Positions 5,388 through 18,245 of a stretch of 64,000 nucleotides of DNA are shown piece after piece. The first letter of the stretch is position 1. Each line of letters starts with the position of its first letter. A program made the position numbers and the translations under genes. Source of the stretch: Nocardiopsis ganjiahuensis DSM 45031 (lineage in GTDB: Bacteria > Actinomycetota > Actinomycetes > Streptosporangiales > Streptosporangiaceae); NCBI RefSeq assembly GCF_000341085.1, contig NZ_ANBA01000014.1, positions 124,001-188,000 on the forward strand, written 5' to 3'. The notes below the pieces were generated by a model. It made no database searches. It was not told where the DNA came from and saw only the letters and a list, made by a program, of their open reading frames with translations.

Positions 5388-5504
5388 TTCTCGTGTCCTG
5401 GCTGCGTGAATTCGGGGTGTGTGAACATCACGGCCGCTCAACCGCCTCGTTGCGCTTCGAGCAAGGCGAGGCGGGGAGCGGGTTCCGGTGCCTTTCGCGG
5501 CGCT

Positions 5505-6077
5505 ATGTTCGTGAACGTGCTTCGTTTCCCCCGCGTCCCCCTCCTGGCCCTGGCGGCCCTGGCCTGGGCCTTTCTCGCCGTACCGTGGACGGCACGCGAC
5601 CCCCTCCTACTGGCGGCGCTGACCGGCACGGTGGTCGGTGCCGTGACCCTCCTGGACCTGTGGGGGTACGCGCTCCGAACCCCCAACACCCCGCCCGAGG
5701 CCGACGTGGCCCTTGCCCTGCTCCACGGAAAGCCGGACGAGATCGACGTGGTCGGTTCCCTGGTCATCTCGGGCCGGGTCCTCCGGCGTCTGGGGGCCCG
5801 CCCTGGAGACCCCGACAGCCGGGTGTGTTCGACCAACCCCCTGCACGGGCCCGCCGCCGGTCTGGGCAGGAGTTACTGGTCCAGGCACACAGACAGGCTC
5901 CTGTGCGCGTGGTGTCTGAACCGGTCACCGAAACACCGCTTCCACTGTTATCGGCTGCACCCGAGGGTGGAGGGAGAGACCCCCGGATTCGCCTCAACGC
6001 GCAGAACACGGTGGCGGTCTGGCGACTACGGATCGCGTGGCAGGATCCGCGCCCAGGAGCTGTTGCGCACACCATGA
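5505..6077 (+). CDS. A-type membrane protein 1 (reduced; Cys-NPLHG module)
   Basis: This 190-residue protein is the short member of the A group. Two membrane segments (about residues 10-28 and 33-55) lead directly into the C-terminal module: KPDEIDVVGSLVISGRVLRRL, then C108-STNPLHG, then LCAWC (C134 and C137) and a closing YGSRGRIRAQELL. Both large extracytoplasmic modules of the full-length A proteins at 6876 and 10284 are missing. An extra HCY-RLHP segment follows the CxxC. The ATG at 5505 starts just before the first membrane helix, but the ribosome binding site is weak and GTG at 5511 is an alternative. Its stop overlaps the next ATG (ATGA at 6074-6077). It is not recognised as a named family, and its function is unknown. 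Confidence 0.7.
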   Translation: MFVNVLRFPRVPLLALAALAWAFLAVPWTARDPLLLAALTGTVVGAVTLLDLWGYALRTPNTPPEADVALALLHGKPDEIDVVGSLVISGRVLRRLGARPGDPDSRVCSTNPLHGPAAGLGRSYWSRHTDRLLCAWCLNRSPKHRFHCYRLHPRVEGETPGFASTRRTRWRSGDYGSRGRIRAQELLRTP

Positions 6078-6802
6078 TCCCTCTCCCTGTCACTTCCTCC
6101 GCCCCGCTTCAACCGCTCGGACCCTGGGCCGCCCCCTTGCCCTGGGTACTGGCTGCGCTGGCCGTGGCCGGACTCCTGTTCCTGGCCTGGCGCCGCTACG
6201 CCCTCCCACCGCTGCCCGCCCTGCGCCAGCACGCGGCCTTCGACAACGCCGACCGCGCACGGGTCAACGAGCTGCGGAGCCGGGCGGAGGGCCGCCTCAC
6301 CGAGGTGGGCCAGCGCCTGGCCGAATCCGGGGAACGGGTGCGCAACACTCCGCGGCTGCGCCGCGCCCTGGATGCCCACGCGGCTGCCCGCCGGGTCCAC
6401 GACGGGGGAGGTGACGCCCCCGACCTGGTGGAGTCGGTGGGGGTCCTGATCCTGCTGGACCTGGCCGAGGACCACTACGCCAGAGCTGTGGCCCGGCGCC
6501 GTGACGAGGCACCCGAAGTGCGCACCCACTGCTACGCCAATCCCCTGCACGGCACCGACACCGAGCACACCGACTGGCGGGAGGTCGGAGGCACGCGTGT
6601 CACCGGTGTGCCGCTCTGCGCCGACTGCGCTGAGGCGGTGCGCACACGGAGGCGTCCCAACGTCCTGCCCGACCGGGACCGAGGGCGCACCGTGCCCTAC
6701 TACAAGGTTCCCGCGGAGCGGAGCGTGTGGGCGGCGACGGGGTTCGGCACCCTCCGGAGCGACCTCGTGGAGCGGGTGCTGCGCGGAGAGCACCGTGGCT
6801 GA
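6074..6802 (+). CDS. B-type membrane protein 1 (reduced; Cys-NPLHG module)
   Basis: This 242-residue protein has one membrane segment (about 20-39), a QHAAFDNADRAR motif just inside the membrane, a helical region with ALDAHAAARRVHD, then VGVLILLDLAEDH, C153-YANPLHG, VPLCADC (C182, C185) and the closing VWAATGFGTLRSDLVERVL. It matches the C-terminal halves of the B proteins at 8923 and 12304 but lacks their signal peptide and extracytoplasmic module. It starts at ATG 6074 inside the stop of the A partner, implying translational coupling. The cysteine spacing suggests a zinc-binding fold, which is inference. Biochemical function is unknown. Confidence 0.75.
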   Translation: MIPLPVTSSAPLQPLGPWAAPLPWVLAALAVAGLLFLAWRRYALPPLPALRQHAAFDNADRARVNELRSRAEGRLTEVGQRLAESGERVRNTPRLRRALDAHAAARRVHDGGGDAPDLVESVGVLILLDLAEDHYARAVARRRDEAPEVRTHCYANPLHGTDTEHTDWREVGGTRVTGVPLCADCAEAVRTRRRPNVLPDRDRGRTVPYYKVPAERSVWAATGFGTLRSDLVERVLRGEHRG

Positions 6803-6875
6803 TCCGAGCTGACCAGCTGCGGAGTCGGCGCTGGGAGCTCCGTCCCGGGTTCCGGGTCGACCGAAAGCTCCGGAT

Positions 6876-8930
6876 ATGCTCGTGCGCATGCCCCTGACCC
6901 CCGACCCCTCCTCTCCAGGGTTCGCTGAACTGCGCCGACGTCTCCTGACGTTGGGCGCCGTGGCTCTCTTCGCCGTGTTCGCGACCCTGTTCGCGGCGGC
7001 GCCCGCCGCGTGGGCGGACCCCGGGGCCGGGGCGACCGAGGCCTACGAGAGTTCCCCGACCCCGGCCGAGTACTACGCCGAGGAACTCGCCGAGCGCCCC
7101 GAGGGCGCGGCCGTGTTCGTCGACGAGGTCATGGCCGGCCAGTACGACGTGGCCGAGCTGGAAGAGGAGCTGCACGAGCTCTTCTCGACCCTCGACGTCC
7201 CGTACCACGTGATCGTCAGCCCCTTCCCCGGCCCCCAGGAGGAGTGGGGAGGCGCCTCCGTCCTGGCCCCGGTGGTCGACCGGCTCGGGCAGGACGGCCT
7301 GTACGTGCACCTGCGCCCCGACACGTACACGCAGGAGGCGCAGGTCCGCGGTTACGACCTGCCCGCGGCGGACAGCGTGCGCGCGCTGTACGACGATCCC
7401 AGGATCGAGCACCGCACCCCCGTCGACACGGTCGCCGCCGTCCTCGTCGAACGCCTCCAGGGCGCCGCGCCCGTGGTGGAGCCGGACGGCTCGGGCGCGG
7501 AGGGATCGGAGGCCGAACCGGGGACACTCGCCGCGTTCTGGGAGGGGTTCCTCGAGGAGACCGATCCCGCGAGCTCCATGGGCGCGGAGAACCTCGGCAC
7601 CCTGTCCGGGCTGGCCGGGGGGTTCCTGATCGCCTCGGCCGGGTTCTGGATCTGGTGGCGGCTCCACGAGGGCCGCGCGGCCGCCTTCGAGGTCCCGGTC
7701 GTGATCGTCACGGGCCTGGCCCTGGCCGGGCTGAGCGTCGCCGGGCCCTACGCCCTCACGGTGAACGCGGCGGAGGAGGACGGCGCCGAGATCGCGCGCG
7801 ATCCCGCCGAGGCCCGCTTCGAACCGCCCTATGTCACCGGCACCGACCGGGTGGAGCGCCTGATTGCCGAGACAGAGTCCGCCCCCCTGTACGTCGGGCC
7901 CCTGGTCCCGATGGACCGGACCGGGCTCGCGGCCACCGCCGAACGGCTGGAGGAGTCGGAGCTCCCGGTCCGCGCCGTGGTCGTGCCCATGGCCGGGAAC
8001 GACGAGTCCGCGGGTGACCCCGAGGTCCTGGCCTACGCCCTGGCCGAGCTCACCGGGGAGGAGGCCGTCTACCTGGTCGCCACCGTCGGCACCGGGGGGC
8101 AGGTCGGGGTCGCCGCCGGGTCCGCCGGACTGGGTATCGACCCCTTCGACCTGAGCCGGACGCTCTGGGATATCTCCGAAGCCACCCCTGCGGAGGCCAT
8201 CGAGGCGGCGCTGCCCGCGCTCGCGGAGGTGCCCACCGATCCCGGCCGGGCCGACGCCGAACCGCTGTTCACGGACGACTACGCGCACGAACCCGGCTCG
8301 CCCTCGGAGCGCTTCTTCGGTGACGGCTTCCTCCCCTGTCTCCTGGCCGTGGGCCCGCTGCTCTCAGGAATCCTCTTCGGAATCGCCCTCGTCGTGGTCT
8401 CCGTGGTGCGGGCGGTGCGCAAGGGCACGGGCGGACGCCGGCCCCGGATGAGCACACGCGCCCTGCGCAGGCTCGCCCTGGCCGAGACCCGGTCCATGGT
8501 CCGGGAGCTGGAGGAGGTCCAGGACGCGCTGGTCCCCGAGTGGGCGATGCGTGACGCCGACGCCTCCCTGGTGGTGCTCCGCCGCCCCGTGGACGCGCTC
8601 GACCTCCTCGGGGTCACGGTCCTGGCCCGCCGGGCCCGGGCGGCCATCGCCGGGAACGCCGTACACGGTACTCGGGCGGTCTGCTCGGCCGACCCCCTGC
8701 ACGGGCAGGCGCGCAGGACCGGCCGGGTCCACCGCCTCCCGGGCCGCAGGCCGCTGTGCGACTCCTGTTTCGACCTCTCGGACAAAGAGCGGGACAGCCG
8801 TGTGCTGGAAGTGCGGATCGACGGGGCCTGGGTCCCGCACCTGGACCTGGACCGGGTCTGGGTCCGCACCAACTACGGATCGACCGGGCGCGCCCTCGTC
8901 GACGGAATCCTGGAGAAGAGCGATGCGTAG
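6876..8930 (+). CDS. A-type membrane protein 2 (two ectomodules, Cys-DPLHG module)
   Basis: A 684-residue protein. Layout: N-terminal signal/anchor (25-46); extracytoplasmic module 1 (about 60-195) with AERPEGAAVFVDE and GLYVHLRP; membrane segments near 243-262 and 272-292; extracytoplasmic module 2 (about 322-455) with PLYVGPLVPMDRTG, AVVVPMAGNDES and AVYLVATVG; a fourth segment (487-512); then a cytoplasmic region ending in C603-SADPLHG, LCDSC (C628, C631) and YGSTGRALVDGIL. Both ectomodules alternate hydrophobic strands and helices. Module 2 is related to the single module of the B proteins. The start is either 6876 or the in-frame ATG at 6888. Its end overlaps the next gene by 8 nt. Not assigned to a characterised family. 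Confidence 0.8.
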   Translation: MLVRMPLTPDPSSPGFAELRRRLLTLGAVALFAVFATLFAAAPAAWADPGAGATEAYESSPTPAEYYAEELAERPEGAAVFVDEVMAGQYDVAELEEELHELFSTLDVPYHVIVSPFPGPQEEWGGASVLAPVVDRLGQDGLYVHLRPDTYTQEAQVRGYDLPAADSVRALYDDPRIEHRTPVDTVAAVLVERLQGAAPVVEPDGSGAEGSEAEPGTLAAFWEGFLEETDPASSMGAENLGTLSGLAGGFLIASAGFWIWWRLHEGRAAAFEVPVVIVTGLALAGLSVAGPYALTVNAAEEDGAEIARDPAEARFEPPYVTGTDRVERLIAETESAPLYVGPLVPMDRTGLAATAERLEESELPVRAVVVPMAGNDESAGDPEVLAYALAELTGEEAVYLVATVGTGGQVGVAAGSAGLGIDPFDLSRTLWDISEATPAEAIEAALPALAEVPTDPGRADAEPLFTDDYAHEPGSPSERFFGDGFLPCLLAVGPLLSGILFGIALVVVSVVRAVRKGTGGRRPRMSTRALRRLALAETRSMVRELEEVQDALVPEWAMRDADASLVVLRRPVDALDLLGVTVLARRARAAIAGNAVHGTRAVCSADPLHGQARRTGRVHRLPGRRPLCDSCFDLSDKERDSRVLEVRIDGAWVPHLDLDRVWVRTNYGSTGRALVDGILEKSDA

Positions 8931-10227
8931 CCCCCGAACCCCCGTCGCCGCGTCGGCGCTCGTTCTGGCCTGCCTGATTGCGTCCCCCGCCGCGGCCCAG
9001 CCGGAGGAGAACGCCTCCCAGGCGATCGCCGACACCCTGGCCGCGTCCCCGGTCCACGTGGACCCCGCCTACGACAGCGCCTTCGGCGACGAGGCCCAGC
9101 AGGAGGTCGTCTCCCTCATCGAGGCCTCGGACCTGCCCCTGTACGTGATCGTGGTGCCCCTGATCGAAGGGGACACCTGGGACGGCCAGCCCGACGACCT
9201 GGCCACCCTCGTCCACGACCGCATGGGTGGCGGGGAGGGCCACTACCTGGTCTTCGCCAACAGCGGCATGCACGGGAAGGACTTCGGTGCCGCCCACGAC
9301 AGCCCCGCCCACTACGGTGCCCTCACCTCCTCCTACGCCACGCAGTTCAGGGGAGATCTGGCCACCGTGGTCGAGGTCTCGGTGGAGACGGCTCTGTCCG
9401 ACGACCCCGAGGGCGCCTTCCTCGCCGCCGAAGCGGCCTACGAGGAACAGCGGGAGGACACGGCGCCGGCCCCGGACCCCTCTCCCTCGGGTACGGACGA
9501 GTCGGCGGAGGCCGGTGGCGTCGGACTCCCCGGCTGGCTGTGGCCGTCCGTGGCCGTCCTGGCACTCGTCCTGGCCGCCGGGCTCGCCTGGCGCGCCCGC
9601 CGTGCCAGGGTCCCCTCGCTGCCCGCGTTGGCCGTCACCCAGCACGCCGGGTTCGACAACGCCGACCGCGCCGAACTGGACCGGCTGGTCGAACGGGGTG
9701 CGACGGACCTGGTCGAACTGGGTGAACGCCTGGGCCGCCTCGGCGCGGCACCCAAGGGCGAGGAGGGCAACCGGCTCCTCCAGCACGCGCTGGACGCCCG
9801 GGCCGCCGCGGCCAGTGTCCACGACCGCATGGCGGCCACCGGACCCACCCTGCCCGACGCGGTCGGTGTGCTCGTCCTGCTCGACATGGCCGAGGACGCC
9901 ATCGTGCGCAGCGGTTCCAGGTCCGGGAAGCCGCGGGTGCACTGCTACGCCAACCCGCTGCACGGCACCGGCACCAAGCTGACGGAGTGGCGTGAGTTCG
10001 GCGGCACCCGCAGTGTCCGGGTACCGCTGTGCGCCGAGTGCGCCTCGACGGTCCGGGGCCGTGGCCGTCCACGGGTCCTGCCCGCCCGGTACCGGGGGAG
10101 CGAGGTGCCCTACTACGAGGTGCCCGCCGAGGAGAGCGTGTGGGCGGCCACCGGCTACGGTGCCCTGCGCGCGGACCTGGTCGACCGTGTCCTGCGCGGC
10201 GAGCACCGGGGCGAGCGCACCCGGTGA
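8923..10227 (+). CDS. B-type membrane protein 2 (signal peptide, ectomodule, Cys-NPLHG module)
   Basis: A 434-residue protein with a signal peptide (cleavage plausible after ASPAAA near residue 25), an extracytoplasmic module (about 32-175) containing PVHVDPAYDSAF, LPLYVIVVPLIEGDTW, VHDRMGG and HYLVFANSG, a Pro/Ser/Asp-rich tether (178-200), one membrane helix (204-223) and a cytoplasmic region. The latter shows QHAGFDNADRAE, a helical stretch, C341-YANPLHG, VPLCAEC (C370, C373) and VWAATGYGALRADLVDRVL. The strand-helix pattern of the ectomodule recalls TPM-type domains, but this is a weak resemblance seen by eye. Starts within the end of its A partner. Function unknown. Confidence 0.8.
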   Translation: MRSPRTPVAASALVLACLIASPAAAQPEENASQAIADTLAASPVHVDPAYDSAFGDEAQQEVVSLIEASDLPLYVIVVPLIEGDTWDGQPDDLATLVHDRMGGGEGHYLVFANSGMHGKDFGAAHDSPAHYGALTSSYATQFRGDLATVVEVSVETALSDDPEGAFLAAEAAYEEQREDTAPAPDPSPSGTDESAEAGGVGLPGWLWPSVAVLALVLAAGLAWRARRARVPSLPALAVTQHAGFDNADRAELDRLVERGATDLVELGERLGRLGAAPKGEEGNRLLQHALDARAAAASVHDRMAATGPTLPDAVGVLVLLDMAEDAIVRSGSRSGKPRVHCYANPLHGTGTKLTEWREFGGTRSVRVPLCAECASTVRGRGRPRVLPARYRGSEVPYYEVPAEESVWAATGYGALRADLVDRVLRGEHRGERTR

Positions 10228-10283
10228 CCGGTTCGACCGCCTCCCGGAAGGCCACCAGACAGAACACCAGGAAAGTTGCTCCG

Positions 10284-12314
10284 ATGGACTCCTCCCGCCC
10301 CCTCGCGGGCCACCGCTCCCGAACGGGCCGCCGTGCGCTGCCGTACCTGACCGCGCCGCTGCTGGCCGCCCTGGTGCTGCTCGGCTCGGCGACCGCAGGC
10401 GCGGGACCCGCGCACGCGGAACCCGAGAACCCCAAGCCCTCTCCCGCCGAGCACTTCGCCGGGCTCCTCGCCGAGGAGCCCGAGGGCGCGGCGGTCGTCG
10501 TCGACGACTCCCTCGCCGGGGACTACGGCCTGGCGGAACTGGAACAGAGCCTGCACGGCTCCTTCGGCAGGCTGGACGTGCCGTACTACGTCGTGGCCAG
10601 CAGCGTCCCGGACTACGCGACCTCGAGTGACGACCTCCTGGCCGGGTTGCAGGACCGTGTGGGCAAGCCCGGCCTGTACGTCCACCTGCGGCCGCAGCAG
10701 TCCCGGGTCCACGCGGTGGCCCGTCAGGTGGACCTGCCGCTGGCCGAGGCCGACCGGGTGCTCGGCAGGGAGCGGGCGTTCACCATCCACACCCCGCTGC
10801 ACACGATGGCGGGCGTCTACGTGGACACCCTGACCGCCCCCGACCTCGCCGAACGGGCCGAACTGCGCTGGAACGACACACTGCCGTTCACCTGGTGGCT
10901 GGAGGCCCGGTTCGGCGGTCTACGGCTGGAAACCCGGTCCGGACCGGCCCAGTTGGGCGAGCTCACGGCGGGGGTCGCCGGAGCGGCGGTGACGCTGGGG
11001 CTGCTGCTGGGGGCGGTCCGCTCCGGGCGGCGGGGCCGGGCGGCGAAGACGGGGTACACCGGGGACCTGCCCGGGGACCGGGCCCTCGGTGTGGGCCGCG
11101 TCCTCGTCCTGGGTACGGGCGCGGTCGTGGTGGTCGCCTCCGTGGTCCACCTGTCCACCGCGGCCCTGCCCTGGGAGCAACAGCAGCGGGGGCCGACCCC
11201 TCCGCAGGTCGGCCCCTACGTCGCCTCCACGGTCCGGGTCACGCGGATCGCCGAGGAACTGGCCGAGGATCCCCTGTACGTGGACCCCCTGGCCCAGGTG
11301 GGCGTCCAGGACCTGAACGGAACCGCGGACCGCCTGACCGGGGCCGAAGTCCCTGTCTACACCGCGGTGCTGCCGATGAGCCGTACCGACGAGTCAGGCG
11401 GCGACCCGGAGGTCCTCGCCTACGCGCTCCACCACGTCATGGACGAGGACGGCCTCTTCATCGTCGTGGACGCCACCGTCGAGGATTCCCCCAAGGTGGG
11501 GGTGGCCCTGTTCGGTGTCGAGGCCGAGGGCCTCTCCGAGGACGCGTACGGCCTGTGGGAGGTGACCGGGCACCGGTTCGACCGGACGGTCGACCAGGCG
11601 TTGGCCGAACTGCTCGACTGGCTGGGGGAGGTCTCGGCGGCTCCGGGGCAGGAACCGGAGACACCCGACTGGGTTCAGGACAGGGCCGAACCGCCCTACG
11701 AGCCCTCCCGGTGGGAGGAGTTCTTCTCCGGCCGGTTCGCCGGGGCCCTGTTCCTGGCCGGACCGCTCACGGCCGCGGTGCTCCTCGCGCTGGCGGGTCT
11801 GGCGCTCCGCGCCAGGGGGCGCCTGCGTGCCGTGCCGGGGCGCGCCCTGCGGCCGCGCGCCGACCGCGCGGTGCGCCGGGCGGTCAGGGCGCTGGAGTCG
11901 GCGCCGCAGGACCGCCCGGGGAGGGACCGGGCCCTGCGCGAGATCGACACCGCCCTGGCCGTCCTGGCCGGGGAACCGGACGAACTCGACCTGGTCGGGG
12001 TGATCGTGCTGGCGGAGCGGTCCGTGCGCAGGCTGGACCCCGAGGTGGTGACCGGGGTCGACGCACAGCTCTGCGAGGTCAACCCCCTGCACGGCCAGGC
12101 CGTGCGGCGCGGGACGGGGCCCGGCCCATCCCTGTGCGCCTCCTGCACGGCGCTGGGGAAGAGCGAACGCGACCGGCGCACCCTCCGGGTGGCCGCTCCG
12201 GAGGGAGGCCGCGTCCCGCACGGGGAGCTGAACCGGCGGTGGGTCACCACCGGCTACGGGACCAGGGGCCGACTCGAGGCCGAAGATCTGCTGAAGGAAA
12301 CCGATGTCCACTGA
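10284..12314 (+). CDS. A-type membrane protein 3 (two ectomodules, Cys-NPLHG module)
   Basis: A 676-residue paralogue of the protein at 6876. Signal/anchor segment about 20-41, with AHA as a possible cleavage site; ectomodule 1 (50-185) with [12 protein letters not shown] and GLYVHLRPQQ; membrane segments about 226-244 and 270-292; ectomodule 2 (315-450) with PLYVDPLAQV, AVLPMSRTDESGGDPE and GLFIVVDA; last membrane segment 487-508; cytoplasmic tail with EPDELDLVGVIVLAER, C597-EVNPLHG, LCASC (C618, C621) and YGTRGRLEAEDLL. The ATG at 10284 is preceded by a CAGGAAAG element. It follows the previous B gene by 56 bp and overlaps its own B partner by 11 nt. Function unknown. Confidence 0.8.
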   Translation: MDSSRPLAGHRSRTGRRALPYLTAPLLAALVLLGSATAGAGPAHAEPENPKPSPAEHFAGLLAEEPEGAAVVVDDSLAGDYGLAELEQSLHGSFGRLDVPYYVVASSVPDYATSSDDLLAGLQDRVGKPGLYVHLRPQQSRVHAVARQVDLPLAEADRVLGRERAFTIHTPLHTMAGVYVDTLTAPDLAERAELRWNDTLPFTWWLEARFGGLRLETRSGPAQLGELTAGVAGAAVTLGLLLGAVRSGRRGRAAKTGYTGDLPGDRALGVGRVLVLGTGAVVVVASVVHLSTAALPWEQQQRGPTPPQVGPYVASTVRVTRIAEELAEDPLYVDPLAQVGVQDLNGTADRLTGAEVPVYTAVLPMSRTDESGGDPEVLAYALHHVMDEDGLFIVVDATVEDSPKVGVALFGVEAEGLSEDAYGLWEVTGHRFDRTVDQALAELLDWLGEVSAAPGQEPETPDWVQDRAEPPYEPSRWEEFFSGRFAGALFLAGPLTAAVLLALAGLALRARGRLRAVPGRALRPRADRAVRRAVRALESAPQDRPGRDRALREIDTALAVLAGEPDELDLVGVIVLAERSVRRLDPEVVTGVDAQLCEVNPLHGQAVRRGTGPGPSLCASCTALGKSERDRRTLRVAAPEGGRVPHGELNRRWVTTGYGTRGRLEAEDLLKETDVH

Positions 12315-13611
12315 CCACAGGACCACGCGTACCCGTTGGGCCGCGGTCGCGGTGCCGCCCCTGGCCGTCCTCCTCCTGGCCGCCGCTCCGGCGGCGAGCC
12401 GGGCCGACACCGCTGAGGAGGGACCGGGGCCGAGCGAGCGCCTGGCGGCGGCGCTGGAGGAGTCACCCGTCTACGTCGATCCCACCTACGCCAGCGCCCT
12501 CCCCGAGGACCTCGTCCAGCAGGTGGAGAACAGCATCAACGACTCCGGGGCGCCGCTGAGGGTGGTGGCCGTCCCGATGATCGAGGGCGGCGACTGGAAC
12601 GGTGACTCCTCCCTCATGGTGTCCGCCGTGCACGACAGGAGCGGCGCGGACGAGGCGCACTACCTGGTCCTGGACGGCCGGAGCCTGTCCGGGCACGACT
12701 TCGAGGCGGGGGGAGAACGCACGAGCCGCGCCTTCTACGGCTCCGAGGCGGCCTCCGTGGAGCTGGGCCGGGACGCCCCGGCCGCGGAGCGCCTGGAGCG
12801 GGCCGTGGAGGTCGCGCTCTCCGACGACCCGGAGGGGATCTACGACACCGCCAGGGAGCAGCAGGAGAGTGCCCCGTTCGACTGGAGGTACTCGCTCGGC
12901 CCGGGAGGGTACACGCTGTTCGCGGTGCTTCCCTGGGTCCTGGCGGCTCTCGCCCTGCTGGGGCTCGGCTTCGGCCTCCACCGCTGGCGCCGGCCCCGGC
13001 CGGTCCCCGTGCTCGCCCAGCACGCGGCGTTCGACAACGCGAACCGGGCGCGGCGGTCCGAGCTGGCCCGCCGGGCGGGTGAGGAGGTGGTCGAACTCGG
13101 CGAGCGCCTGAGCCAGGCGGCTCCGACCAGCGGTGACGGTGCGGCGGAGGCCCTCCACCGGGCTCTGGACGCGCACGCCGCGGCCCGTAGGGTCTACGAC
13201 CGGCTCCCCGACACCGGGGCCCTGGAGGAGATCGCCGGGGTGCTGGTGCTGTTGGACATGGCCGAGGACCACCTGGACCGGGCGACCCGGCCCGTCGGCC
13301 GCCAGCGCTCCGCGCCCCTGCGCTCGCACTGCTACGCGAACCCGCTGCACGGGACCGTCACCAAGGTGACGAAGTGGCGGGAGTTCGGCGGGCGCAACGA
13401 CATCAGGGTGCCGCTGTGCGCTCCGTGCGCGAAGGCGGTCCGGGACCGGCAGCGCCCGACCGTGCTGTCCGCCCGGTACCGGGGACGTGAGGTGCCCTAC
13501 TACGAGGTGCCCGCCGAGGAGAGCGTGTGGGCGGCCACCGGTTACGGCGCCCTGCGTGAGGACCTGGTCGAGCGTGTTCTGCGCGGCGACCGCCGGGGCC
13601 GGACGAGATAA
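12304..13611 (+). CDS. B-type membrane protein 3 (signal peptide, ectomodule, Cys-NPLHG module)
   Basis: A 435-residue paralogue of the protein at 8923. Signal peptide about 1-34 (hydrophobic 13-31), ectomodule about 44-185 with PVYVDPTYASAL, VVAVPMIEGGDW, AVHDRSG and HYLVLDGRSLSG, membrane helix about 203-224, then QHAAFDNANRAR, ALDAHAAARRVYD, C343-YANPLHG, VPLCAPC (C372, C375), VPYYEVPAEESVW and YGALREDLVERVL. The cytoplasmic half is far more conserved among the three B proteins than the ectomodule, as expected if the inside binds a common partner and the outside has diversified (inference). Starts inside the A3 stop region. Function unknown. Confidence 0.8.
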   Translation: MSTDHRTTRTRWAAVAVPPLAVLLLAAAPAASRADTAEEGPGPSERLAAALEESPVYVDPTYASALPEDLVQQVENSINDSGAPLRVVAVPMIEGGDWNGDSSLMVSAVHDRSGADEAHYLVLDGRSLSGHDFEAGGERTSRAFYGSEAASVELGRDAPAAERLERAVEVALSDDPEGIYDTAREQQESAPFDWRYSLGPGGYTLFAVLPWVLAALALLGLGFGLHRWRRPRPVPVLAQHAAFDNANRARRSELARRAGEEVVELGERLSQAAPTSGDGAAEALHRALDAHAAARRVYDRLPDTGALEEIAGVLVLLDMAEDHLDRATRPVGRQRSAPLRSHCYANPLHGTVTKVTKWREFGGRNDIRVPLCAPCAKAVRDRQRPTVLSARYRGREVPYYEVPAEESVWAATGYGALREDLVERVLRGDRRGRTR

Positions 13612-13686
13612 CGTCCGGGCATCGGATCAGGGGATGCGGGAACCGGGACCGTGTACGGGCGGTCAGTTCCCTGTGGCACCCTGACA

Positions 13687-13707
13687 TGGCGCCCCGCCGG
13701 GGCGCCA
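13687..13707 (+). other. Short GC-rich hairpin upstream of the first kinase gene
   Basis: TGGCGCCCC and GGGGCGCCA form a perfect 9-bp stem with a 3-nt loop, 33 bp before the GTG of the kinase gene. No U-tract follows, so it is not a typical terminator. It could attenuate or stabilise the transcript between the membrane-protein and kinase genes. Confidence 0.4.
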
Positions 13708-13740
13708 CGGGAACGGTGACGGAAGAGAGACGGGCGGGCT

Positions 13741-16023
13741 GTGGACGACCCTCAGAACCAGGGATCGGAGGCCGAGGAGGTCGGCGGCTACCGACTGACT
13801 CGTTCGCTGGGACGGGGCGGTTTCGGTGAGGTGTTCCTCGGTGAGGCCGAGGACGGTACCCGCGCCGCGGTGAAGCTGTTGCACGCCAGTTGGTCGGGCG
13901 ACCCCGACATGCGGCGCCGCTTCGCCGCCGAGGTCGATCAGGCCCGGCGGGTGAGCGGGTTCTGCGTGGCGACGATCCTGGACGCCGACCCCGGCGCCGA
14001 ACGGCCCTGGATCGCCACCGAGTACATCGACGGCCCCACCCTCCAGGCCTCGGTCGAGCAGAACGGTCCGCGCTCGGGAGTGGAACTCCAGCGTCTGGCC
14101 GTGGGCAGCGCGACCGCGCTCGCGGCGATCCACGCCGCCGGGGTGGTGCACCGCGACCTCAAGCCGGACAACATCATGCTGGCCCCGGACGGGCCGAGGG
14201 TGATCGACTTCGGTATCGCCCGCGCCGTGGAGACCACCTCGGTGACGGCCAGCGGGGTGGTCGGAACGATCGGCTACATGGCCCCCGAGCAGTTGGAGGG
14301 CGCCCGCCTCACCTCGGCCGTGGACGTCTTCTCCTGGGCGTCGGTGATGGTCTTCGCGGCGACCGGCAGGGAGGCCTTCCACGGCCCCACCCAGGCCTCG
14401 CGCATCGCCCGCATCCTGGGCGGCGAGCCCGACCTCGGTGGACTGGAGGGCGCCTTCGCCGACATCCTCCGCGCCTGTCTGGACAAGGAGCCCGGGAAGC
14501 GGCCCGACGCCGAGACCCTCATGCGGTGGCTGATCTCCGCGCCCTCCGGCGGCGGCGCGGCCCCGGCACCGGCGGGGACCGGCGGCCACACGGCCGCCCC
14601 CGGCCGGGACCTCACCGCGGTGACCCCCTCACCGGACGCCCACACCCGGGTCGGGGTCGAGGGGACCAGGGTCGCCGAGCACCCGCCCACCGGTGTGGTC
14701 CCGGTCGACCCCACCAGGGTGGCCCCGCCCGGGAAGACCGACCCCACCCGCGCGTACACACGCATGGCACCGGCCGAGGCGCGCCCCGGACAGACCCCGC
14801 AGCCCGGGCAGACCCCGTCGGAGCGGCACCTCCAGCAGGCTCCGCCGCCCGTGTCGCACACGCCGGCCCCGTACGCGCCGCCCCCGTACCCGCCGGTCTC
14901 CGAGACCCCGGTGCCCGGGCACACCGGGGCGGTGCCGCCCTACCACTTCGTCGGCGTCCGCTTCCTCGACCCCGGGGCCCTGGCCGAGGCGATGCAGCAG
15001 AACTGGAGCGCCGCCGTCCAGGTCTTCAGCGACCCCGTCGAACGCGCCGCCCTGGGCGCCTGGATCGTCGACGACCTCGGGGACACCAGAGTCGACCGCT
15101 CCCTCTTCCGCCGCGAGGTCAGGGACGCCAACCTGGCGGTCGCCTCCTTCGTGGCCCAGAACCGCCCCGACCTGCCACCGGTCTTCCGCGGCAGGGGCGT
15201 GTCCCTGGCCGAGCTCCGGGCGCTCTTCTCCGACCCCGGGCCGATCCTGACCGGTGCTCCGATGGCCAACGAGATGGTCCTGCTGGCCCGGCCCGAGCTC
15301 CTGCGGCTGTTGAGCGCGCACCAGGGCTCCGAGGCCGCCGAGTACCAGCGCCTCGCCGAACAGCTCGACCGGGCCGAGCGCGCCGGGACACTCATGCACG
15401 AACAGCTCGCCCAGCAGCTCGTGGGGTGGCGCTCCAGCAAGCCCAACGTCAACCCCTCGCTGATCCTCGCCTTCCTCCTGAACCCCGACCGGATGGTCCC
15501 GCCCGGAAGCGGCGGCGACTCCGGGGTCGCCGAGTGGGTGGACATCCTCTGGCAGCGCGTCATGAACTCCGGGGATCCGGACAACGCCGGGTACGCCGCA
15601 GCGGTCTACGGTTCCATGAGCACCCTCCAGGCCCTGGCCCGTCAGCGCCGTTACTGGGAGAGCCGCTACTCCGAGGTGTCCACCGCCCACGAGGCCGTCC
15701 AGGACAAGGTGCGGCTCCAGGAACGGATCGCCACCGTCGTCCGCTGGAGCAAGTACTCCCTCTTCGGCATCCCCGTCGGCCTGGTCCTGGGAGCGGCCAC
15801 CGACAGCGAGGCCTTCGGCCTGCTGTCCCTGCTGGGGGCGCTCGGCGCAGTGGTCCTGGTCGGGGCCGTCGCCACGAACCTGGTGCTCTGCGGGCCCGCC
15901 CCCCGTCGACGGCAGCGGGTCATGGAACTGCACAACTCCGGGCACCAGCTGCCGCAGCTCACCTCCGGGGTGGAGCGCATCCGCGCGGACCTGGCCCAGG
16001 CGCGCAGGATCAGCGCCGGCTGA
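13741..16023 (+). CDS. Membrane-anchored Ser/Thr protein kinase 1
   Basis: A 760-residue Hanks-type kinase. Catalytic features in order: glycine loop GRGGFGEVFLG (24-34), lysine K45 in AAVKLL, catalytic loop HRDLKPDN (D139, K141, N144), DFG at 156-158 and APEQLEG in the activation segment. A Pro/Thr-rich linker (about 268-395) leads to a conserved region (about 399-640) containing VGVRFLDPGALAEAM and VDRSLFRREVRDAN, which I do not recognise, then two hydrophobic helices near 675-720 and a short tail. No PASTA or other known sensor domain is visible. Start is GTG with a GGAAGAGAG element upstream. Follows the A/B array by 129 bp on the same strand. Confidence 0.9.
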   Translation: MDDPQNQGSEAEEVGGYRLTRSLGRGGFGEVFLGEAEDGTRAAVKLLHASWSGDPDMRRRFAAEVDQARRVSGFCVATILDADPGAERPWIATEYIDGPTLQASVEQNGPRSGVELQRLAVGSATALAAIHAAGVVHRDLKPDNIMLAPDGPRVIDFGIARAVETTSVTASGVVGTIGYMAPEQLEGARLTSAVDVFSWASVMVFAATGREAFHGPTQASRIARILGGEPDLGGLEGAFADILRACLDKEPGKRPDAETLMRWLISAPSGGGAAPAPAGTGGHTAAPGRDLTAVTPSPDAHTRVGVEGTRVAEHPPTGVVPVDPTRVAPPGKTDPTRAYTRMAPAEARPGQTPQPGQTPSERHLQQAPPPVSHTPAPYAPPPYPPVSETPVPGHTGAVPPYHFVGVRFLDPGALAEAMQQNWSAAVQVFSDPVERAALGAWIVDDLGDTRVDRSLFRREVRDANLAVASFVAQNRPDLPPVFRGRGVSLAELRALFSDPGPILTGAPMANEMVLLARPELLRLLSAHQGSEAAEYQRLAEQLDRAERAGTLMHEQLAQQLVGWRSSKPNVNPSLILAFLLNPDRMVPPGSGGDSGVAEWVDILWQRVMNSGDPDNAGYAAAVYGSMSTLQALARQRRYWESRYSEVSTAHEAVQDKVRLQERIATVVRWSKYSLFGIPVGLVLGAATDSEAFGLLSLLGALGAVVLVGAVATNLVLCGPAPRRRQRVMELHNSGHQLPQLTSGVERIRADLAQARRISAG

Positions 16024-16133
16024 CACCACCGGCCGGCACCACGGCGCGGCACCACGGGTCGGCGTCGTCGGCCGTGCCGCGCCGTGCGACGCGGCGCACG
16101 GAACAGGACAAGAGAAGAAGGAAGGGTGGGATC

Positions 16134-18245
16134 GTGGACGAGACCACGGACGTGACCTCCTCCCCCCGGAGGGCCGGTCCGTATCGTCTGACCCGTTCGC
16201 TGGGACGGGGTGGTTTCGGTGAGGTCTTCCTCGGTGAGGCCGAGGACGGCACCCGCGCCGCGGTGAAGCTGTTGCACGCCAGTTGGTCGGGCGATCCCGA
16301 CATGCGGCGCCGCTTCGCCGCCGAGGTCGATCAGGCCCGGCGGGTGAGCGGGTTCTGCATCGCCGCGATCCTGGACGCCGACCCCGGCGCGGACGAGCCG
16401 TGGATCGCCACCGAGTACATCGACGGCCCCACCCTCCACCGCGCTGTCACCGAGGACGGCCCCCGGACCGGCGACGAACTCCAGCGCCTCGCGGTCAACA
16501 CGGCAACCGCGCTCGCGGCGATCCACGCCGCCGGGGTGGTGCACCGCGACCTCAAGCCGGACAACATCATGCTGGCCCCGGACGGGCCGAGGGTGATCGA
16601 CTTCGGCATCGCCCGCGCCGTGGAGACCACATCGGTGACGGCCAGCGGCATCGTCGGCACGGTCGGGTACATGGCTCCCGAGCAGTTGGAGGGGATGCGC
16701 CTCACCTCGGCCGTGGACGTCTTCTCCTGGGCGTCGGTGATGGTCTTCGCGGCGACCGGCAGGGAGGCCTTCCACGGCCCCACCCAGGCCTCGCGCATCG
16801 CCCGGGTGCTGTCCGGGGAACCCGACACCGGCGACCTGTCCGGGCCGCTGCTGGACACCGTCCTGGCCTGCCTGGACAAGGACCCGAAGCGTCGTCCGGA
16901 CGCGGCCGCGCTCTTCCACCACCTGATCTCGGGCAGCGCGCCGGGACCCGGGGCGCCGGTGGCCCCCACCCGGGTGGAGGAGGTGGCGCCGACGCCGCCC
17001 ACCCGCCGGTACACCGAGATCGCTCCGAACCCCGCTCCGCGGCGTCCGGCTCCCACCCCACCGCCCGCCCCGCCGCGTACACAGAGCTCCTACGCCGCCC
17101 CGGCCCTTGCCCGCACAAGCGAGGGAGAGGCCCCGCCGTACAGTTTCGCCGGGGTCCGCTTCACCCGGATCGAGGCGCTGGCCGCCGCCATGCAGGAGCA
17201 CTGGTCGGAGGCGGTCACGGTTCTCGGCGACCCCGCCGAGAGGTCCATGCTCGGGTCCTGGGTCATCAACGACATCCACGACACCAAGGTGGACCGGTCC
17301 CTGTTCCGCAGGGAGGTCAGGGACGCGAACATGGCGGTGGCCTCCTTCATCGCCCAGGCCTGCCCGGAGCTGCCGCCCCGTTTTCGGGGCCACGACCTGA
17401 CGCTCGAAGGGCTGGGCCGCCTCTTCAGTGATCCCCGCCCGCTCATCACCGGCGGCCACCGGGCCAACGAGCTCATGCTGCTGGCCCGTCCGGAGCTGCT
17501 GCGGCAGATGGCGGAGCACCAGGGCGGGGACGGGCCGAGACTGGGCCGGCTGGCCGGGGAGATCGAGGAGGCCGAACGGACCGGCACGGCCTTCCACCGG
17601 GAGCTCGCCCAGAACCTCACCGGCTGGCGCGGCTTCGAGGGCAGAGTGGAGCCCGCACTGGTGCTGGCCTTCCTCCTGCACCCGGAACTCGTCGTGCCCC
17701 CGGACCCCGGCGGCCTGCCCGGGGTCGCGGACTGGACGGGCGCGCTCTGGCCGCGTGTCGACCTCGCCTCGGGCACCCAGCGCGTGGGGTACGCGGCGGC
17801 GGTCTACGCCTGTCTGCCGACCGTCGTCACCCTGGCCCGGCAACGTTCTGCCTGGGAGCAGCGGTCTGTGGCCCTGCACAGCGAGCACAGGGCGCTGGCC
17901 GCTGCCGCGCGGTCGGCAGAGGAGCACTCGGGGACGACGAAGGTCCTGGGCGTCGTGGCCGCCCTGTGCCTGCTCTTGTCCGTGGTCTTCGCGGCGGCGG
18001 CCCAGGGCTCGGGGTTGGGCATGCTGTTCTTCTTGGCCGCGGTGGGTCTGGTGAGCACTCTGGCGATCCAGAAACAGCGGGACACCAATCGCTACGGGGG
18101 CGCGTACGTGCGCCACATGCAGAACCAGCGGATGCAGGGCATCCCCGTCCAGGGGCGGGAGCTGCTCCAGGGGCTCCGGAGGATGGACACCGACCTCCAG
18201 CAGGCCCGCCGGCTGTGTTCACAGCCGCCCCGGCAGCGCCACTAG
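16134..18245 (+). CDS. Membrane-anchored Ser/Thr protein kinase 2
   Basis: A 703-residue paralogue of the preceding kinase with the same catalytic residues at the same positions (K45, D139, K141, N144, D156). Its linker is shorter and Pro-rich (about 265-340), followed by the same unrecognised region (FAGVRFTRIEALAAAM, VDRSLFRREVRDAN, HDLTLEGLGRLF) and two hydrophobic segments close to the C-terminus. The kinase-domain DNA contains blocks of about 100 bp that are identical or nearly so to kinase 1, while the linker and C-terminal region have diverged. GTG at 16134 has GAAGGGTGGG just upstream. Ends the same-strand run, with a terminator 20 bp beyond. Confidence 0.9.
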   Translation: MDETTDVTSSPRRAGPYRLTRSLGRGGFGEVFLGEAEDGTRAAVKLLHASWSGDPDMRRRFAAEVDQARRVSGFCIAAILDADPGADEPWIATEYIDGPTLHRAVTEDGPRTGDELQRLAVNTATALAAIHAAGVVHRDLKPDNIMLAPDGPRVIDFGIARAVETTSVTASGIVGTVGYMAPEQLEGMRLTSAVDVFSWASVMVFAATGREAFHGPTQASRIARVLSGEPDTGDLSGPLLDTVLACLDKDPKRRPDAAALFHHLISGSAPGPGAPVAPTRVEEVAPTPPTRRYTEIAPNPAPRRPAPTPPPAPPRTQSSYAAPALARTSEGEAPPYSFAGVRFTRIEALAAAMQEHWSEAVTVLGDPAERSMLGSWVINDIHDTKVDRSLFRREVRDANMAVASFIAQACPELPPRFRGHDLTLEGLGRLFSDPRPLITGGHRANELMLLARPELLRQMAEHQGGDGPRLGRLAGEIEEAERTGTAFHRELAQNLTGWRGFEGRVEPALVLAFLLHPELVVPPDPGGLPGVADWTGALWPRVDLASGTQRVGYAAAVYACLPTVVTLARQRSAWEQRSVALHSEHRALAAAARSAEEHSGTTKVLGVVAALCLLLSVVFAAAAQGSGLGMLFFLAAVGLVSTLAIQKQRDTNRYGGAYVRHMQNQRMQGIPVQGRELLQGLRRMDTDLQQARRLCSQPPRQRH

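Follow-up and report, generated by a model that had tools for sequence, protein, structure and literature searches.

Why do two neighbouring protein kinase genes share stretches of almost identical DNA inside domains that differ strongly elsewhere? The question is raised by K1 and K2, a tandem pair in Nocardiopsis ganjiahuensis DSM 45031, and was addressed in a 64,000-nucleotide stretch of its draft genome (the window; 7.35 Mb in the whole assembly). The source genome is termed G000 and other G numbers denote the genomes of Nocardiopsis relatives. A sequence-only reading of the locus had named two candidate causes, recent gene conversion or purifying selection at the nucleotide level. The analysis presented here indicates that recurrent gene conversion, i.e. 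partial concerted evolution, very probably explains the K1/K2 mosaic.

The kinase pair and its mosaic of identity

K1 (13741-16023, forward strand, 760 amino acids) was annotated by Pkinase match and alignment as a Hanks-type Ser/Thr kinase, and K2 (16134-18245, forward strand, 703 amino acids) as its tandem paralogue. The match to the Pkinase profile PF00069 (E 4e-36 for K1 and 2e-39 for K2) and intact catalytic motifs in both (Gly loop, AVK, HRDLKPDN, DFG and APE) identify the products as predicted Hanks-type Ser/Thr protein kinases. In K1 the kinase domain (residues 17-261) is followed by a Pro-rich linker, a copy-specific helical region and a hydrophobic segment near the C-terminus (689-721); K2 has the same layout, with a shorter linker and the hydrophobic segment at 599-647. 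Because these segments lie near the C-terminus, the C-terminal region is probably at the inner side of the membrane. It occupies 14947-16020 in K1, where it is orthologous across species and carries no conversion signal, and 17145-18242 in K2 (both forward strand), the two proteins being ~45% identical there. Searches of Pfam, NCBIfam and solved structures gave no match to this region, and its AlphaFold model (mean pLDDT 82, pTM 0.63; the other four models score 48-70) matched no solved structure with E below 0.1. As structure and sequence searches were both without a match, no sensing role is claimed for it. Named orthologous records come from Nocardiopsis species that include N. metallicus, N. 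prasina and N. terrae.

The two kinase domains align without gaps at a constant offset of 2393 nt, and a 300-nt repeat within them (13789-14088 and 16182-16481) is 89% identical. In 30-codon windows, DNA identity is 0.97-0.99 at 13831-13965, 0.99 at 14146-14235 and 0.97 at 14326-14415, and dips to 0.76 at 14056-14145 and 0.62 at 14416-14505, with values of 0.39-0.80 further downstream. Three blocks, all on the forward strand, are 97-100% identical. Block 1 (codons ~29-71; 13825-13953 in K1, 16218-16346 in K2) runs from the end of the glycine loop to alpha-C, block 2 (codons 128-171; 14122-14253 and 16515-16646) covers the HRDLKPDN catalytic loop, DFG and activation loop, and block 3 (codons 189-223; 14305-14409 and 16698-16802) extends from the C-lobe into the alpha-G region. 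The stretches between the blocks are 50-80% identical, with dips at codons 76-127 and 172-188; identity falls sharply at codon 224 to ~60% beyond, and the C-terminal halves are ~59-66% identical in DNA.

The longest exact run shared by K1 and K2 is 107 nt. Permutation of the variable sites of the kinase domain alone confirmed that identical sites are clustered (P=0.0002 for the longest run and likewise for the number of runs). Restricted to synonymous sites, the test gave P=0.098 for the longest run and P=0.002 for run number; the former is weak because just 98 sites remain. Single-genome run tests are weak when limited to perfectly conserved codons, and the a/b pair of G030 showed no clustering of identical sites in the runs test. 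The nearly identical blocks amid divergent parts that the sequence-only reading had described are thus borne out, as are the differences in linker length and C-terminal region, and divergence along the kinase domain is not uniform. Of its two example pairs of blocks, the second (14308-14415 and 16701-16808) is correctly placed and the first is off by one, i.e. 13864 pairs with 16257 and not 16256.

Homogenisation within and between genomes

A search of 40 Nocardiopsis genomes (G000 included) with the K1 C-terminal region as query returned a match in 40/40. Species carry one to three copies of the kinase, and pairs comparable over the kinase domain were found in 15 genomes besides G000. K1 and K2 of two genomes at a time were then compared in a quartet test that counts every kinase site, with no picking of blocks. 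Paralogue-supporting sites outnumbered control sites by 38 to 1 for G000 against G020, 32 to 3 against G021 and 32 to 4 against G037 (P from 1e-6 to 7e-11), and overall the four-gene site test gave 30-38 paralogue-supporting and 1-7 control sites in the kinase. No such excess was seen in the C-terminus (7/2 with G020, 7/6 with G021, 8/5 with G037).

Divergence at synonymous sites follows the same boundaries. In the core blocks, dS averages 0.16 between paralogues within a genome (0.05 within G000 alone), against 0.45 both for paralogues of different genomes and for orthologues, and the bootstrap interval of the within/between ratio is 0.25-0.44. In the copy-specific islands described below and the C-terminus, paralogue dS is equal within and between genomes (0.7-1.2, ratio ~1), for example 0.99 and 0.98 for the island at codons 224-262 and 0.74 and 0.73 for the C-terminus. 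These values bear directly on purifying selection at the nucleotide level, through RNA structure, codon usage or overlapping antisense frames, as the force that keeps the blocks alike. The blocks do span the most constrained kinase motifs, and high G+C and codon bias lift synonymous identity (in unrelated kinases of G000, identity over the best 90 nt is 0.8-0.9), but a constraint of this kind would keep orthologues alike too. It is therefore refuted by their dS of 0.45 in the very same blocks, and hardly any credence can be given to it.

Phylogenetic tests separate the core from the remainder of the genes. For the core blocks, the orthology tree was rejected by the AU test (dlnL 107, P=2e-5) and in the core tree K1 groups with K2 within G000, G021 and G037. 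For the islands and the C-terminus it is K1-K2 sisterhood that was rejected (dlnL 123 and 273, respectively), and their trees show clean K1 and K2 clades over five species. A separate recent duplication in each species, leaving a young pair whose core is merely more constrained, would suit the variable copy number but not these clades or the log units that sisterhood costs, which make such an origin exceedingly improbable. The limits of blocks and islands were partly drawn from the very data tested. When the blocks were instead delimited in G000 by itself and the test was confined to G020, G021 and G037, orthology was rejected for these three species too (dlnL 40.6, P=3e-5).

Gene conversion is accordingly strongly supported by quartets, dS and AU tests, although as a recurrent, genus-wide process and not as the single recent event first suggested. 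The core is homogenised within genomes, in several lineages independently, and no homogenisation is seen elsewhere in the genes. Conversion has occurred repeatedly, in no fewer than four lineages (G000, the G010/G020 ancestor, G021 and G037). Between G010 and G020, there has been none since their split (1 paralogue-supporting, 0 control and 102 orthologue-supporting sites), so conversion is episodic. The signature is also present in relatives assembled as one or two large contigs (G001, G010, G020 and G038) and is therefore no assembly artefact. With lower dS within genomes, different trees for tract and flank, and clustered identical sites with breakpoints, K1 and K2 are a case of concerted evolution.

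Controls on other gene pairs were mostly negative, showing that the test is not triggered by kinases as such. A kinase pair on contig 2 gave quartets of 7/5 and 8/4. Contig 31 of the source genome carries a tandem array of seven kinases (L079, 10730-14986), nearly all pairs of which were flat in the quartet test, with little or no conversion in those below ~78% identity; the neighbours at 10730 and 12328 gave a strong signal (41/7 with G037, P=3e-7; 20/5 with G020, P=2e-3). Conversion seems to need close, similar neighbours. Exact runs of 62-65 nt between other kinases of the genome had suggested conversion among them, which was dismissed for most of them on negative quartets.

Upstream of the kinases, the window contains a tandem array of a two-gene A-B unit (5406-13611), comprising a degenerate remnant (5406-6802), A1 (6876-8930), B1 (8923-10227), A2 (10284-12314) and B2 (12304-13611). 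Sets of A-B copies vary among related genomes, and no Pfam family was matched by the array proteins (A1 was outside the scan). Conversion between B1 and B2, prompted by an 84% repeat at the gene ends, was rejected: paralogue identity within the genome is similar to that across species, and both are below orthologue identity.

Over ~3.4 kb of this region (10444-13856), most 100-nt bins are 94-98% identical to G037, against 65-92% in the remainder of the locus. The segment extends from the upstream genes into K1, of which it includes the first 116 nt, and, judged from its similarity, looks like the result of exchange between species. The likeness to G037 ends inside K1 at 13857, the start of the K1/K2 block. 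This similarity, with its break, is the point in favour of homogenisation mainly by DNA from other strains, acquired through transformation or conjugation and recombined into both copies. Import alone, however, would make orthologues alike across species and not paralogues within one, and the pairing of K1 with K2 within lineages in the core tree renders it improbable as the main source. The data do not distinguish conversion proper from exchange with DNA of another cell that has the same genes. The break had also suggested K1 of G000 as acceptor and K2 as donor, an assignment that was dropped as either genome could be the overwritten one.

Copy-specific islands and the proposed mechanism

Three copy-specific islands interrupt or border the blocks on the forward strand: codons 100-127 in the alpha-D region (14038-14121 in K1, partner 16431-16514), codons 172-188 at the activation-loop end and P+1 side (14254-14304, partner 16647-16697) and codons 224-262 at the end of the C-lobe (14410-14526, partner 16803-16919). 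Homogenisation ends at codon 223/224 in 16/16 genome pairs (identity 0.83-0.95 before and 0.56-0.70 after), and all genomes examined have copy-specific codons 224-262. The mosaic thus reaches inside the kinase domain as well. In a six-genome clade, 20 amino acids consistently differ between K1 and K2, mostly within islands, and those fixed in the 172-188 island are V/I173, I/V177 and A/M188. The sensor parts, said to have been freed, do differ between the copies, yet orthologue dN for the C-terminal half is 0.145, so this part is conserved across species and is copy-specific rather than free.

Contacts of Hanks kinases with substrates and with partner kinases are made through the alpha-D, P+1 and alpha-G to alpha-I regions, so it is plausible that selection maintains the island differences. 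Alternatively, conversion could be neutral throughout, with the islands being spots too diverged to pair, an account that touches only the selection step and has a reasonable, though somewhat less than even, chance of being right. Codons 224-262 and the C-terminus are ~60% identical between the copies in G000, which is low for recombination, and the pairs of the contig-31 array with little conversion point the same way; a heterology barrier could be the cause of the largest island. Against neutrality, the 172-188 island is short, lies between converted blocks and has a dN of 0.002 between orthologues and 0.14 between copies, and its V/I173 and I/V177 differences recur in more distant pairs.

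K1 and K2 are old tandem duplicates, present as a triplet in some species, and recurrent conversion would operate on them through homologous recombination, presumably of the RecA type, between kinase domains in the same orientation ~2.4 kb apart. Short tracts (~100-130 bp in G000) would repeatedly be copied between the twins by non-reciprocal conversion, and the ATP-binding and catalytic core would therefore stay alike within a genome. The C-terminal halves and islands, above all codons 224-262, escape homogenisation and descend separately as K1-type and K2-type; conversions that blend the islands may be removed by selection, if islands help to fix the choice of partner or substrate.

Now and then, unequal crossover between copies would delete or fuse genes. 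Three kinases (a, b and c) are present in G001 and G026, while G034 (L051) has two, the second of which combines b-type upstream DNA and leader (score 185 against G001_b and 54 against G001_c) with a C-lobe, linker and C-terminus that are all c-type. The b/c junction lies inside the kinase domain, strongly indicating that this fusion is the expected product of unequal crossing over within kinase domains. The assemblies of G002 and G007 are interrupted inside the kinase domain, the two halves lying at the ends of separate contigs, and the domain is cut by a contig end in G014, G019, G023 and G039; these breaks are consistent with near-identical repeats. The third kinase of G026 (L044) and the first of G009 (L043) have a frame that appears broken in or after the kinase domain, and are either pseudogenes or the result of sequencing errors.

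More tentatively, and with the balance of probability somewhat against it, Nocardiopsis tandem kinase loci might be viewed as recombination cassettes, in which conversion keeps the engine uniform, rare crossovers swap promoter and leader relative to the C-terminal region, and selection keeps the islands (alpha-D, P+1 side and C-lobe end) distinct, insulating two signals. Tandem arrangement is common among bacterial Ser/Thr kinases, whose signalling specificity is poorly understood. In this pair, recombination appears to sort the positions of each kinase into those that can be shared between paralogues and those that cannot, which offers residues 16, 76, 103-107, 173, 177 and 188 and a cluster in 225-262 as candidate specificity residues. 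Furthermore, kinase-domain trees from tandem arrays can mislead, and assemblies may break there.

Comparison with known systems

The best curated matches of K1 and K2 are the AfsK and PknB families, and the nearest solved structures are StkP and PknB. Neither protein belongs to these families by score: they reach 205 and 217 bits against the AfsK cut-off of 1300, over the kinase part and linker only, and 159 and 170 bits against the cut-off of 450 for PknB/Stk1 PASTA kinases, with no PASTA repeats in the profile search. Literature searches on conversion in bacterial kinases returned no account of homogenisation of part of the core with a genus-wide boundary. The process itself is already known, and K1/K2 is a clear new instance of it.

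Long-lasting concerted evolution by recurrent gene conversion has been described for tuf and other duplicated prokaryotic genes (Wang and Chen 2018, PMC6053082), in a paper in which the word 'kinase' does not occur. As in those cases, K1 and K2 of one genome resemble each other more closely than orthologues do. Unlike the tuf type, whole-gene homogenisation is not seen, since the C-terminus and islands show none; the effect is limited to part of one domain, with a shared boundary, and the remainder behaves as ordinary orthologues. In Mycobacterium tuberculosis, the portions consulted of two reports (PMC13061034, PMC12046097) describe gene conversion as a driver of diversity at paralogous antigen and virulence-associated loci. 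As far as those portions go, the likeness is conversion between paralogues in a high-G+C actinobacterium and the difference lies in the outcome, for conversion between K1 and K2 keeps the catalytic core uniform.
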